In this document: positions 5,703 to 18,130 of the stretch, in pieces
Layout of the letters: every line of letters begins with the position of its first letter
Position numbering within the stretch: position 1 is the stretch's first letter
Virus record (IMG/VR): IMGVR_UViG_3300010400_000032
Location: 1 to 40,352 of that record
Direction: 5' to 3' (one strand)
DNA from: a virus
DNA length: 40,352 bases
Program-made: the position numbers and the translations under genes
The notes under the pieces: generated by a model
What the model saw: only the letters and a program-made list of their open reading frames with translations
Told to the model about the DNA's origin: nothing
Database searches by the model: none

Positions 5703-6255
5703 GCTTTCTGGATACCTTCGAAAAAAGACGGCTCGCCATCTCGCCTACGTCTGTAGTAGACTGCCCATCCAAGTCGGGCACACTCTGTGAGCCTCTGTCC
5801 GCTGGGGACGCTTGTTCATTGGCCATGAATAGGCGTCCTTTCAATTCTTGATAGGCGCTAGCGGCCTCTTCCCTGGTGGCTCGTATGCCGCGGAACCGCT
5901 GTCCCATGATGCGCAACTCGTAACGCCACTTCTTTTTTCGCCTGACCCAGCTAACGCCAATTGCTGCACTATTCAGTTGGTTTTGCGAGGCAGAAACATC
6001 ACGCAGATTGCAGAACCGGTTGTCGGATCTGACTCTGTTGATGTGATCGATTTGATTGCTTGGCCAGACTCCATTCATGTAGAGCCACGCGCACCGATGC
6101 GCGGCGAGCATCAATCCGCGAGCAAAATTGATGCGGATGTAGCCGTTAGGCTTGAGGCTCCCGGCCTGCTGCCCACGGCGCTTGCCAGTCAGCCAAGTGA
6201 ATAGCCCGCTGTCAGGGTCGTAATGAACACGTTGCTTGAGTTCAGCTTGGTTCAC
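5677..6255 (-). CDS. HNH endonuclease with AP2-like DNA-binding domain
   Basis: The protein has 192 residues from GTG 6255 (start MNQAELKQRV); an in-frame TTG at 6270 would add five glycine-rich residues. The HNH core has AAHRCAW (His53), Asp70-His71-Ile72-Asn73, Asn79 and Asn83. Residues about 99-145 (GVSWVRRKKKWRYELRIMGQ) form an AP2-type strand-rich DNA-binding domain. This architecture is typical of free-standing homing endonucleases in phages. It is preceded and followed by hairpins, as for a mobile insertion in the early operon. Homing is inferred. Confidence 0.85.
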   Translation of the reverse strand: MNQAELKQRVHYDPDSGLFTWLTGKRRGQQAGSLKPNGYIRINFARGLMLAAHRCAWLYMNGVWPSNQIDHINRVRSDNRFCNLRDVSASQNQLNSAAIGVSWVRRKKKWRYELRIMGQRFRGIRATREEAASAYQELKGRLFMANEQASPADRGSQSVPDLDGQSTTDVGEMASRLFSKVSRKQNAPGVVS

Positions 6256-6272
6256 TTCCCCACCCCCCAACA

Positions 6273-7214: not shown

Positions 7215-7484
7215 ATGGAGACCATGGGCCAGCGAATCAAACGTTTACGCGAGGCCAGGAATTGGACTCAGGGATTCCTTGCCGACCAAGTCGGCGTCAC
7301 CGTCTCAGCGGTTTCACAATGGGAACTCGACCAGACCGAAAACGTTAAGCTGGTGCCCTTCCTGAGGCTCGCCAAGGTACTGGAGACCGACCCCCACTAC
7401 CTGGTGTTCGGCCAGAGCCGGGGCGCTGCGGAGCTTTCCAAGCCGGTTCAGGTGATATCGGCAAAGAAGCGGCTGAAGGACTGA
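7215..7484 (+). CDS. CI-like repressor, short form (XRE helix-turn-helix)
   Basis: The gene encodes 89 residues from ATG 7215 (ATG 7224 also possible; ATG 7158 has GAGG at good spacing but would put the operator inside the gene start). The HTH is at about residues 18-37, TQGFLADQVGVTVSAVSQWE, followed by helices typical of XRE domains. It lacks the S24 peptidase/dimerisation domain of lambda CI, so RecA-triggered self-cleavage is not expected. It is divergent from the Cro-like gene with an operator between them and is the best candidate for the lysogeny repressor. Confidence 0.75.
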   Translation: METMGQRIKRLREARNWTQGFLADQVGVTVSAVSQWELDQTENVKLVPFLRLAKVLETDPHYLVFGQSRGAAELSKPVQVISAKKRLKD

Positions 7485-10314: not shown

Positions 10315-10490
10315 GCCGCGCGGACTTCGATCTCGCTGACGATACGTTCACGCGAACGACGCGCGTGCACGACTGGCGCAACCACGTGCCCGGCGAAGTG
10401 ATGGACACATGGCGAATGCTGACTGAGCGCGAGCGGCGCCTGGTTGCTGAGGTAGCCGAGATGGCTGCCGATGCGGAGGAGTGGCCATGA
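10311..10490 (+). CDS. Small acidic protein (59 aa) in the overlap chain
   Basis: ATG 10311 and the TGA at 10488-10490 each overlap a neighbour by 4 nt. The product is charged, with a likely amphipathic C-terminal helix (LTERERRLVAEVAEMAADAE). Function unknown. Confidence 0.6.
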   Translation: MSRADFDLADDTFTRTTRVHDWRNHVPGEVMDTWRMLTERERRLVAEVAEMAADAEEWP

Positions 10491-14997: not shown

Positions 14998-15710
14998 GCA
15001 TGCCGCACGAATGCGTTTGCCGGATCTGCGGCCATTCGCTGTCGCCAATGTGGGTCACAGACTCCACCCCACCCGCTGCGCCGAGCATCGACGAGCAGAT
15101 CGAATCAGCACTGGCAGAAGCAAGCACAATATGCCCGAACTGCGGCGATAGGTTCGACAAGCTAGGGCGCGTGCACCTGATAAACCAAACTCCGCGCATC
15201 TGCTATGACGACAATTCAGACGCACTTCGCGCTGCGCCGAGCGCGGAGGCGCTCCAGACGCAGGGAAAGTGCGAGGAATGCGGCGCTGACCCTGGCAAAC
15301 ATCGCGTTGGATGCACGATTGGCTGGCCTACCGCCGCAACTCCACAACACGCGCGCCATGAAGGACGCTGGTATTACTGCTGGCTGATCGAGCGGCGCGA
15401 CGGGCCACAGCCTACGTGGCTCGGCGAATGGTCATGGGAGGCAGACGCAAACAAAGCGATTTGGTACGCGCGTGAATCGGACGCCGAAGCGGCCCGCAAT
15501 CATCAGCTCAAAGGCGTCCGCAATATCGTTGTTTGCGAGCACGGCTTCATGCTGGAACGAGCAGCAGCACCGGACGACTCCCTTCGCGCTGCGATGAGGG
15601 CCGGTGCCGGCGCACTTCTGTCATTTCCATCATTGTTCCCCACAGACGAGGTGAAAGCACGTGAAGCCCACGCCGCCCTGCTTGAGCGCGCGGCCGAGGG
15701 AGGGAAATGA
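14994..15710 (+). CDS. Zinc-finger-containing protein of unknown function (238 aa)
   Basis: The start is GTG 14994 (overlap) or ATG 15000. Three Cys pairs in CVCRICG, CPNCGDRF and KCEECGADPG suggest two to three zinc ribbons in residues 1-105. A Trp-rich domain (WYYCWLIERR, WLGEWSWE) follows, then a helical C-terminus. The mosaic look suggests a phage-specific fusion of small domains. No known activity. Confidence 0.65.
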   Translation: MSMPHECVCRICGHSLSPMWVTDSTPPAAPSIDEQIESALAEASTICPNCGDRFDKLGRVHLINQTPRICYDDNSDALRAAPSAEALQTQGKCEECGADPGKHRVGCTIGWPTAATPQHARHEGRWYYCWLIERRDGPQPTWLGEWSWEADANKAIWYARESDAEAARNHQLKGVRNIVVCEHGFMLERAAAPDDSLRAAMRAGAGALLSFPSLFPTDEVKAREAHAALLERAAEGGK

Positions 15711-15913
15711 GCGACGCCACAGAATTGGCGGAAGCGCGCCGCGTTCTCGCTTTCGTGTTCCATCGCTCGAAGTTCGGGCTATTCAGCTTCAGACGGTCAC
15801 AGCGCGATCAAGCGTTGTCCGATGTGAACTACTGGACCGAGAAATATGGCGTGTATTGGCAGCCGCCGTTGCCTCCGGATCGCAATCGAATCTGGTGCGG
15901 GGAGCGCCCTTGA
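15707..15913 (+). CDS. Small basic protein (68 aa)
   Basis: ATG 15707 overlaps the previous stop and its TGA overlaps the TTG start of the following gene. It is a Phe/Arg-rich N-terminal helix with a Pro/Trp-rich end (YGVYWQPPLPPDR). Function unknown; coupling suggests it is translated with the TGT-like gene. Confidence 0.55.
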   Translation: MSDATELAEARRVLAFVFHRSKFGLFSFRRSQRDQALSDVNYWTEKYGVYWQPPLPPDRNRIWCGERP

Positions 15914-16656
15914 TCCACTACCACGGTACACCAATGACGCCAGCCGCTGACATGGTGACCGCATTCACCGGCCGTCACGCAATGGTCTCATTCGAGGACT
16001 CGCGACAAATCGACGTGGCGGCGGAAATCTGTAAATCAGTCGTCCTCGACAATGGAGCCTTTAGTGCGTGGAAAGCTGGCAAGAAGCATGACTTCGCAGG
16101 CTTTCAGGATTGGGCGCGCTTCTGGCTGCGCCATCCTTGCGTGGAGTGGGCAATTATTCCTGACGTGATTGACGGCACGGAGCGCGATAACGATCTACTG
16201 CTCGCGGATTGGGAATTGCCGCAGACGGTTTCGGTGCCCGTCTATCACCTGCATGAAAGCCTCGACCGGCTAGAGCGCCTGATCGGCGTTGGTTATGTGC
16301 GAGTCGCGCTGGGCAGCTCAGGAAAGTATGCGGACCCAGGCTCGAAGCGCTGGTGGCAGCGCATGGCGGAGGTGATGGCCGTCGCTTGCGATGACGACGG
16401 ATACCCAGTCTGCAAGCTACATGGCCTGCGAATGCTGGATTCAACGCTGCTGGCCCATCTACCTCTCACTTCAGCCGACTCCTGCAACGTCGCCAGAAAT
16501 GTGGGAATTGATCTTGCGTGGAATGGGCCATACGCACCAACGAACCGCGCAAGACGCGCACAAATCCTGATGGATCGAATCGAAGCACACGCATCCGCTG
16601 CCCGTTGGTGCGGCAAGTCGTCAGGCGTACAGCAGAACATGGAGTTACTAGGATGA
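15910..16656 (+). CDS. TGT-like / DpdA-like protein (putative guanine-deazaguanine exchange enzyme)
   Basis: The gene encodes 248 residues from TTG 15910 (GTGA/TTGA-style overlap); ATG 15934 would give 240. The motif order is VVLDNGAFSAW (44-54), AIIPDVIDG (81-89), VPVYHLHES (109-117), YVRVALGSSG (129-138), KLHGLRML (169-176) and LTSADS (186-191). This is the Asp-x-Gly-Ala-Phe, Pro-Asp-Val, Gly-x-Gly/Ser, His-Gly-Leu and Ser-x-Asp-Ser ladder of TGT-fold proteins related to phage DpdA. DpdA swaps guanine in DNA for a 7-deazaguanine. No preQ0-synthesis genes (folE, queD, queE, queC) are in the window, so a substrate would come from the host. It could alternatively act on RNA. Confidence 0.55.
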   Translation: MIHYHGTPMTPAADMVTAFTGRHAMVSFEDSRQIDVAAEICKSVVLDNGAFSAWKAGKKHDFAGFQDWARFWLRHPCVEWAIIPDVIDGTERDNDLLLADWELPQTVSVPVYHLHESLDRLERLIGVGYVRVALGSSGKYADPGSKRWWQRMAEVMAVACDDDGYPVCKLHGLRMLDSTLLAHLPLTSADSCNVARNVGIDLAWNGPYAPTNRARRAQILMDRIEAHASAARWCGKSSGVQQNMELLG

Positions 16657-16889
16657 CCCACGAGCGCATCACGGAGGACGGCTGGATTCCGGTAACGGAA
16701 AAGCTGCCAAGCAGGACCGATATCGGGCGCGGCTTCATATGCACGCTACAGCCACATGAGGGCAAGCCGTACGTTGCTGAGATGTGCTGGCTAGGTGGCC
16801 GCCGACCAGCGAGTCAGTGGCAAGGCGATTGGTCTGGACGCATTACAGCCTGGCGCCATTTTCCAGAGCCGTACAAGGGGAAGGCGTGA
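16653..16889 (+). CDS. DUF551-family phage protein
   Basis: The gene encodes 78 residues from ATG 16653 (overlap). GWIPVTEKLPSRTD at the start, a central variable strand region and ITAWRHFPEPYKG at the end match DUF551, a small single-domain family frequent in phage early regions. Function unknown. Confidence 0.75.
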   Translation: MTHERITEDGWIPVTEKLPSRTDIGRGFICTLQPHEGKPYVAEMCWLGGRRPASQWQGDWSGRITAWRHFPEPYKGKA

Positions 16890-17194
16890 TCGTCACCTTC
16901 GAGCAGCTACGCCAAATCAGCCGCCGCAAGTCGCGGCTGGGTGTGCGTAAGTGGCTCATGGAGAACAAGATCACGCACGGTTTGGGGAGCGACGGCGCAC
17001 CCTGGACTACTACTGAGGCGATCAACAAGGCACTCTTGGGCCCAGAACTACAACCGGATTTCTCCGCATGCCGCTCCCGCCAGGCGTCACACCCAAGCAC
17101 GGCCGGTACTACATCGTCCGGCGCAACAAGTGGCATCCGCTCACGCGCATCGACGAGGGCGAGGTTGCGCTCCTTGAGGCTTACTACGAGTTAA
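16886..17194 (+). CDS. DUF4224-like protein preceding the integrase (excisionase position)
   Basis: The gene encodes 102 residues from GTG 16886 (overlap). Residues 4-50 (FEQLRQISRRKSRLGVRKWL, then TTTEAINKALLG) resemble DUF4224, a short HTH-like domain often directly upstream of phage integrases. The frame runs 127 nt into the integrase gene; the Ser/Arg-rich tail looks like out-of-frame sequence. It may serve as an excisionase or recombination directionality factor; this is inferred from position. Confidence 0.55.
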   Translation: MIVTFEQLRQISRRKSRLGVRKWLMENKITHGLGSDGAPWTTTEAINKALLGPELQPDFSACRSRQASHPSTAGTTSSGATSGIRSRASTRARLRSLRLTTS

Positions 17195-17976
17195 CGCATG
17201 CCGACCCGCACAACATGGCGGGAGTGCTGATCGCGTTTATCAAAGCCGGCATGACGAAACTCAGACCACCAACGCAGCGAGACTACCGGCGAATTGTCGT
17301 GACCCGCCTGATTCCCTTCTGCGGCCACATGCCGCGCAACGCATTGAAGCCGACGCACGTCGCGCAGTATCTCGACCAGCGCGAAACCGAGGGCGCGGCG
17401 GTCGCTGGCAACCGTGAGCGCGCGTGCCTTTCAAGCGCCTGCAATTATGGGATGCGCAAGGGCTGGCTCGAGATGAACCCATGCCACGGCGTCAGGCGCA
17501 ACACCGAGCGGCCGAGCAAGGTCTACGTCGCCCACGAGGCCCTGTCCGCGGCTATCGACCGCGCGCCGGAATGCCTGCAGGATCTCCTGGCCGTCGCCTA
17601 CCTCACCGGCATCCGCCAAACCGACCTGCGGCAGATGACCCCGTCAGCTGTGCATGGCGATCGGCTCAGGTTCATCGAAAGCAAGACCGGCAAACCTGCC
17701 GACTACGAGATTACCCGCACGTTGCGGTTCTTCGTGGATCGTGCGTTAAACCGCGCCAGGGGCTTCAGGAGCGGCGCGCTGTTCACCTCTCCCAGAGGGC
17801 TCCCCTGGTCAGAGTGGGGCCTGCAAAGTGCAATGCGACGGCTGAACCCCGGCTTTCAGTTCAGGCAGCTGAGGCCGAAGGCGCAGACCGACGCCCCGGA
17901 CAGGAATGTGATCGGCCACATGGGACAGATGCGGGTGGCGTACACCCGGGCGGACCGGCGCCGGCCGGTGAAGTGA
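17068..17976 (+). CDS. int: Tyrosine-family site-specific integrase
   Basis: The protein has 302 residues. The N-terminal segment MPLPPGVTPKHGRYYIVRRN is typical of phage integrases, and a SAM-like core-binding domain follows (about 50-145). Catalytic positions are Arg183 (TGIRQTDLRQM), Lys206 (SKTGK), Arg269 (RQLRPKAQTD), His284 (IGHMGQ) and Tyr292 (AYTRADRR). The first residue of the HxxR box is Arg266 instead of His. The C-terminus is short, ending 10 residues after Tyr292. It integrates the phage by recombination at attP, 45 bp downstream of its stop, into a tRNA-Lys(CTT) gene. Confidence 0.9.
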   Translation: MPLPPGVTPKHGRYYIVRRNKWHPLTRIDEGEVALLEAYYELTHADPHNMAGVLIAFIKAGMTKLRPPTQRDYRRIVVTRLIPFCGHMPRNALKPTHVAQYLDQRETEGAAVAGNRERACLSSACNYGMRKGWLEMNPCHGVRRNTERPSKVYVAHEALSAAIDRAPECLQDLLAVAYLTGIRQTDLRQMTPSAVHGDRLRFIESKTGKPADYEITRTLRFFVDRALNRARGFRSGALFTSPRGLPWSEWGLQSAMRRLNPGFQFRQLRPKAQTDAPDRNVIGHMGQMRVAYTRADRRRPVK

Positions 17977-17978
17977 GC

Positions 17979-17998
17979 GTCTAAGGCCACCCTTAGAC
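17979..17998 (+). terminator. Perfect 8-bp hairpin just after the integrase
   Basis: GTCTAAGG and CCTTAGAC pair perfectly around CCAC, 2 nt after the integrase stop. There is no clear T-run, so it may be a weak terminator, an mRNA-end stabiliser, or part of the integrase arm-site array, because TTAGAC recurs nearby. Confidence 0.45.
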
Positions 17999-18008
17999 AC
18001 TTAGACAC
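17993..18008 (+). repeat. Tandem TTAGACAC repeats (candidate integrase arm-type sites, left arm)
   Basis: TTAGACAC occurs twice in tandem at 17993-18000 and 18001-18008. The 11-mer GACACTTAGAC (17996-18006) is found inverted at 18120-18130 on the other side of the core. Short repeats flanking a tRNA-type core are typical arm sites of tyrosine integrases. Confidence 0.55.
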
Positions 18009-18021
18009 TTCGTCGCGTAAG

Positions 18022-18066
18022 TGGTGGGCCGTGTAGGGGTCGAACCTACGACCTACTGATTAAGAG
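18022..18066 (-). other. attP: attP core: 3' part of tRNA-Lys(CTT)
   Basis: Read on the minus strand the segment begins at the anticodon loop (CTCTTAA, anticodon CTT). It continues through the 3' anticodon arm and a complete T-arm (GTAGG-TTCGACC-CCTAC), then the 3' acceptor strand ACGGCCC and ACCA. The 5' half of a tRNA is absent: the sequence before the loop (AACTCC) does not pair with TCAGT. It is therefore an attachment core that restores tRNA-Lys on integration, not a functional tRNA. It lies next to int. Confidence 0.85.
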
Positions 18067-18091
18067 GGAGTTGGCCTGTGATCTATGTCGC

Positions 18092-18107
18092 TGTTTCACG
18101 TGGAACA
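18092..18107. promoter_or_regulatory. parS: Perfect match to bacterial chromosomal parS (ParB-binding site)
   Basis: TGTTTCACGTGGAACA fits the bacterial parS consensus TGTTnCACGTGnAACA at all 14 fixed positions. It lies 25 bp from the attP core and inside the pair of arm-type repeats. ParB binds this palindrome and spreads from it; the host ParABS system uses it to segregate origins. No ParA- or ParB-like protein is encoded in the window, so any ParB would be the host's. A chance match is very unlikely (about 40,000 positions against 4 to the 14th). Confidence 0.8.
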
Positions 18108-18119
18108 TTTTCGATGATC

Positions 18120-18130
18120 GTCTAAGTGTC
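18120..18130 (+). repeat. Inverted arm-type repeat (right arm)
   Basis: GTCTAAGTGTC is the exact inverse complement of GACACTTAGAC at 17996-18006. The two copies bracket the tRNA-Lys core and the parS-like site. Confidence 0.55.

Follow-up and report, generated by a model that had tools for sequence, protein, structure and literature searches.

A parS site of the type found on bacterial chromosomes lies inside the attachment site (attP) of the phage analyzed here, between the tRNA-Lys core and the outer arm-type site, and its position and spacing are kept in two diverged relatives. Comparison of these sequences suggests that the integration system probably recruits host ParB to this parS as an accessory factor. 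The borrowing of ParB by other genetic elements is already known from phi29 and SGI1; what is new here is a parS built into attP. The stretch of DNA analyzed, hereafter the window, comprises 40,352 bp of a viral record, and its relevant features are the following.

16886..17194, plus strand: xis, excisionase, with a probable GTG start, overlapping the start of int (phrog_1266, E 3e-6)
17068..17976, plus strand: int, tyrosine integrase of the lambda/P2-Int type, 302 aa (Phage_int_M; phrog_1 integrase)
17976..18006, no strand assigned: int-side arm-type repeats AGCGTCTAAGG, CCTTAGACACT and GACACTTAGAC, from a repeat search
18022..18066, minus strand: attP core, the 3' half of tRNA-Lys(CUU) from the CCA end to the anticodon loop, placed by sequence, by the complete tRNA-Lys(ctt) of the relative L003 and by the end of L003 homology at 18066 (crossover side)
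18092..18107, no strand assigned: parS TGTTTCACGTGGAACA, exact at 14 of 14 positions, with position and spacing kept in the relatives L002 (TGTTCCACGTGGAACA) and L152 (TGTTTCACGTGGAACA)
18120..18130, no strand assigned: parS-side arm-type site GTCTAAGTGTC, 12 nt from parS, the perfect inverse of 17996-18006, with the 12-nt spacing kept in both relatives

The site at 18092-18107 agrees at all 14 fixed positions with the 16-bp palindrome TGTTnCACGTGnAACA, reportedly the consensus given by Livny et al. 2007 for chromosomal parS of the ParABS system, and is the sole exact match within the window; the sites of the relatives are exact as well. For a palindromic pattern, simple arithmetic (40,352/4^14) puts the expectation of an exact 14-position match at ~1.5e-4 per window. 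An initial annotation of this DNA had called a perfect parS and a chance expectation on the order of 1 in 10,000 for 40 kb, and both statements hold. The site is far from a chance occurrence, given that two relatives carry it in the same register.

Within attP, the core ends with GATTAAGAG (18058-18066), exactly 25 nt from parS, and a further 12 nt separate parS from the GTCTAAG arm repeat, such that the order reads core, parS, right arm site. Arm-type repeats lie on both sides of the core (17976-18006 and 18120-18130), the arrangement of a bivalent attP, and an 11-bp perfect inverted repeat formed by GACACTTAGAC (17996-18006) and GTCTAAGTGTC (18120-18130) encloses both the core and parS. ARAGORN detects no complete tRNA in the window; a complete tRNA-Lys(ctt) stands at the integrated end of L003. 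The earlier description of parS as lying 25 bp from a tRNA-Lys core and inside arm-type repeats is thus borne out by coordinates and repeats. In lambda attP, the IHF site H' lies between the core and the P' arm. The window resembles lambda attP in its lambda/P2-type integrase, its core with flanking arms and its putative host-protein site between core and arm. It differs in placing parS there, and in the window, L002 and L152 alike the interval from the core to the parS-side arm contains no IHF-like match.

The integrase is identified as a tyrosine recombinase by Phage_int_M, phrog_1 and profile matches to the P2-type Int 5c6k (E 9.6e-7) and to lambda Int 1z1b (E 7.5e-4). A low-confidence AlphaFold model (pLDDT 58) places three strands and a helix in residues 7-45, a predicted beta-beta-beta-alpha fold that would resemble the arm-binding domain of lambda Int. 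Near this module lies a gene resembling queuine tRNA-ribosyltransferase (15661-16656; phrog_887, E 2e-59).

Scans of IMG/VR returned no close relatives of the integrase other than L002, L003 and L152, with 82%, 81% and 59% identity, and all three encode xis (75%, 78% and 46% identity); a sequence search of genome contigs returned no relative. The contig of L003, an integrated prophage, stops before the far end, with no second copy of the core and with the parS side beyond its limits. Both relatives with a visible attP, two of two, carry an exact orphan parS, TGTTCCACGTGGAACA in L002 and TGTTTCACGTGGAACA in L152. This outcome speaks for the initial annotation, which had named absence or mutation in close relatives as evidence against its proposal. 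The register GATTAAGAG - 25 nt - parS - 12 nt - GTCT is identical in the window, L002 and L152, three members of shared ancestry, and the tRNA T-arm offset is 58 in each. In the known phages F10, Alize and KS5, which encode more distant homologues of the integrase (26-33% identity), no parS lies near int, the best candidates having 4-5 mismatches. Four loci that fit the tRNA-Lys/parS pattern, L281-L284, were rejected because they show neither a visible tRNA half nor an integrase match, and four genomic tRNA-Lys/parS matches considered as prophages look like host loci, lying beside mnmG, rsmG and similar genes in translated frames.

The 25-nt spacer has diverged far more than the site itself. 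Compared with the window, L002 matches at 14 of 25 spacer positions, 15 of 16 parS positions and 7 of 7 arm positions, and its single parS change, T to C, falls on a degenerate position. L152 matches at only 8 of 25 spacer positions and at 5 of 7 in the arm (GTCTCAC versus GTCTAAG), yet all 16 parS positions are unaltered.

When whole records are aligned by BLASTN, the window is similar to L002 only at 16887-18126 (74.5%) and to L152 only at 16922-18111 (65.5%), where homology stops 4 nt beyond parS; at the level of open reading frames, tblastn matches are confined to the xis and int frames. At the BLASTN sensitivity used, the three phages are otherwise unrelated by sequence. Since they share only xis, int, the core and parS, this unit is a cassette that has moved between phages with parS as its right edge, and the factor that recognizes parS must be either host-encoded or one of Int and Xis. 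An FkbM-type methyltransferase gene (PF05050; 18169-18987), probably a moron, separates attP from an Rz-like spanin gene.

The phage appears to carry no partition system of its own. Searches for ParB_N (PF02195), HTH_ParB (PF17762) and ParA-type AAA_31 (PF13614), with positive controls in reference genomes, found none of these families in the window record, in agreement with the initial annotation; parA and parB are thus not paired with this parS on the same replicon. The same families are absent from the sequence present in the L002, L003, L152 and L203 records; any of these records, like that of the window, may be a fragment. The window site therefore matches chromosomal parS exactly, at 14 of 14 positions of TGTTnCACGTGnAACA, and differs in setting: chromosomal sites form an origin-proximal cluster, and this one stands on a phage that lacks parAB.

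A second attP with the same order is found in L203 (record G004), where a partial tRNA-Arg(CCG) core is followed by parS and then by repeats of the GATCCAAC form, which lie on both sides of the core. Its tyrosine integrase, ~300 bp away, has no tblastn match to the window integrase even at E 10. L203 shares the core-parS-arm order with the window but not the spacing, and its int is on the opposite side. On these sequences, L203 is an independent case with an unrelated integrase. A composite scan for a T-loop together with parS returned mostly chance neighbors, and of the matches listed all but L152 and L203 failed the T-arm test. Searching in full for tRNA cores of the TTCGAACC type at 30-60 nt from parS added no other genuine attP, indicating that the arrangement is rare.

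Outside attP, parS is widespread among phages. IMG/VR yields at least 120 listed matches to parS and likewise at least 120 to parS with a nearby T-loop-like hexamer, which implies, as a rough estimate from the chance frequency of the hexamer, thousands of parS sites; across all of IMG/VR, a reversed control palindrome is confined to 34 stretches. In 50,697 deposited phage records, with matches counted at 16 nt or more, ATGTTTCACGTGAAACAT is present in 315, ATGTTTCACGTGGAACAT in 164 and ATGTTCCACGTGGAACAT in 108, and a control palindrome in none. Among the matches listed, position 5 is Y and position 12 is R in 140 of 147 phage parS-like sites, compared with ~25% expected by chance; this is the ParB signature, and it lends indirect support to binding by ParB. 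A ParB_N protein is encoded in only 3 of the 44 records searched, 43 of which carry parS. Leaving aside the attP cases above, recognized integrases lie kilobases from parS in the parS-selected sample, so parS can evidently serve phages outside attP. Sequence counts, then, show a strong over-representation of orphan chromosomal-type parS among phages, mostly in the absence of a ParB encoded by the phage and usually outside attP, and how often phages use host ParB becomes a direct experimental question.

Deposited phages with parS include those of Listeria, Microbacterium, Arthrobacter, Gordonia, Bacillus (the phi29 family), Pseudomonas, Stenotrophomonas and Mycobacterium. None of the three match lists has Escherichia among its ten most frequent names, and no enterobacterial phage appears in 60 rows sampled evenly from the first (ATGTTTCACGTGAAACAT) list. 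Klebsiella is an exception, with 10 records in one list, those listed being mostly jumbo phages of ~350 kb. Chromosomal-type parS thus appears to be scarce in enterobacterial phages, consistent with the absence, to our knowledge, of chromosomal ParABS from their hosts.

We favor a scheme in which a mobile cassette of xis, int and a tRNA-Lys attP took in a host-type parS, placed between core and outer arm-type site. ParB of the host, acting as a CTP clamp, would be recruited to this parS on the phage circle, whether injected or excised. There it might tether, position or stabilize the attP circle on the host nucleoid through ParA; alternatively, it might shape or gate the core-arm loop at the place where lambda attP has its IHF site. 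After integration, parS would lie at the prophage end distal to int. Both the binding of ParB to the attP parS and the step of the life cycle that it serves are what we infer, and the presence of a ParB in the host is assumed. The conserved register and the mobile cassette strengthen the earlier proposal that an orphan host-type parS is tied to integration through host ParB; its further suggestion, control of FkbM, did not survive, as described below.

A simpler function would be partition alone, with parS merely partitioning or tethering the free circle, either ahead of integration or following excision, by means of the host ParABS system, and with its location in attP irrelevant to recombination. 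The many positions at which orphan parS occurs in phage genomes would suit this account, and there are precedents in other elements. The parS sites of SGI1 are bound by the ParB of an IncC plasmid, whose ParAB stabilizes the excised island (PMC10954446). SGI1 is, like the window phage, an integrative element without ParA or ParB that carries parS for a partition system encoded elsewhere; it differs in that ParAB comes from a helper plasmid and that parS is not described, in the passages available, as part of attP, whereas the window site is of host-chromosome type and lies between core and arm. The DNA of phi29 needs Spo0J for spore entry and entrapment (Meijer et al. 2005, cited by PMC9437464). 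The 18-mer ATGTTTCACGTGGAACAT is present in genomes of the phi29 family; in phi29 itself it stands at position 10444. In phi29, too, a phage genome relies on a host ParB homologue, namely Spo0J, but phi29 is virulent and does not integrate, and its site, located in the connector gene, serves spore entrapment. By itself, partition of the circle leaves unexplained the fixed 25/12 spacing, the retention of parS with xis, int and attP while other genes differ, and the core-parS-arm order of L203. Fixed spacing and co-inheritance with the recombination module favor a link to recombination, and we regard a role in partition alone as somewhat doubtful.

Alternatively, the palindrome could be a binding site for Int, Xis or some other cassette function that resembles parS through convergence. 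Apart from Int and Xis, no protein was found in common among the three phages, and the palindrome sits where recombination proteins bind. However, all 14 ParB-specific positions match in the window, L002 and L152; the arm-type sequence has drifted in L152 and parS has not; and parS also accompanies the unrelated integrase of L203 and occurs in hundreds of other phage records. Convergence is accordingly an improbable source of the match.

Still less probable, and indeed very unlikely, is that parS loads ParB, with SMC, on the prophage so that ParB spreading silences or insulates genes at the prophage end such as FkbM. ParB spreading can affect transcription nearby, and in the window parS precedes FkbM by ~60 nt. 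Beyond parS, however, the genes are entirely different in the relatives, and the fetched L002 and L152 loci, both of which keep parS, contain no FkbM counterpart. FkbM thus lies outside the cassette, and the earlier idea that parS controls it is dropped as unsupported. Chance, or recent capture of host DNA along with the tRNA fragment, can be set aside as negligible even though host chromosomes carry a few parS sites, given the expectation of ~1.5e-4 per window, the in-register recurrence in two diverged relatives and the position of parS on the phage side of the crossover, where the intact host tRNA of L003, the only host-derived part, continues differently; host capture had been named initially as a possible refutation.

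Returning to host ParB as an accessory factor of integration, a more specific and tentative version holds that the integrase complex may be built around ParB-loaded parS in place of IHF, with host ParB serving as an integration host factor. If so, recombination would be coupled to the CTP-dependent segregation machinery of the host, and each lysogen would gain an extra centromere site at a tRNA-Lys gene. More generally, a parS that is fixed in attP and passed on together with the integrase would tie the integration of phages to the segregation of chromosomes, and integration would put a loading site for ParB and SMC at a new chromosomal position. A literature search of open-access papers found none on parS inside attP. 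A 2025 survey of ParB folds covers ParB-like phage proteins and, in the portion available, leaves orphan phage parS unmentioned (PMC12704722).

Several other placements of parS in phage records were observed. In the phiPsa374-like phages of Pseudomonas syringae, such as phiPsa374 (L303:388-405), parS falls within the annotated direct terminal repeat, and in the Ruegeria phages DSS3P8 and vB_RpoS-V10 it lies at position 840, near the genome end. Related phage contigs (L197:310-325, L233, L221 and L292:212-227) have at least one conserved parS just 3' of a CGCATATAATC-like motif. L004 carries two parS (6245-6260 and 7225-7240), each just past the 3' end of a tRNA-like T-arm/acceptor, in an arrangement other than that of attP. 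Finally, two short viral contigs (L035:2657-3444 and L091:10535-11462) carry five clustered copies within ~1 kb, reminiscent of a centromere array.
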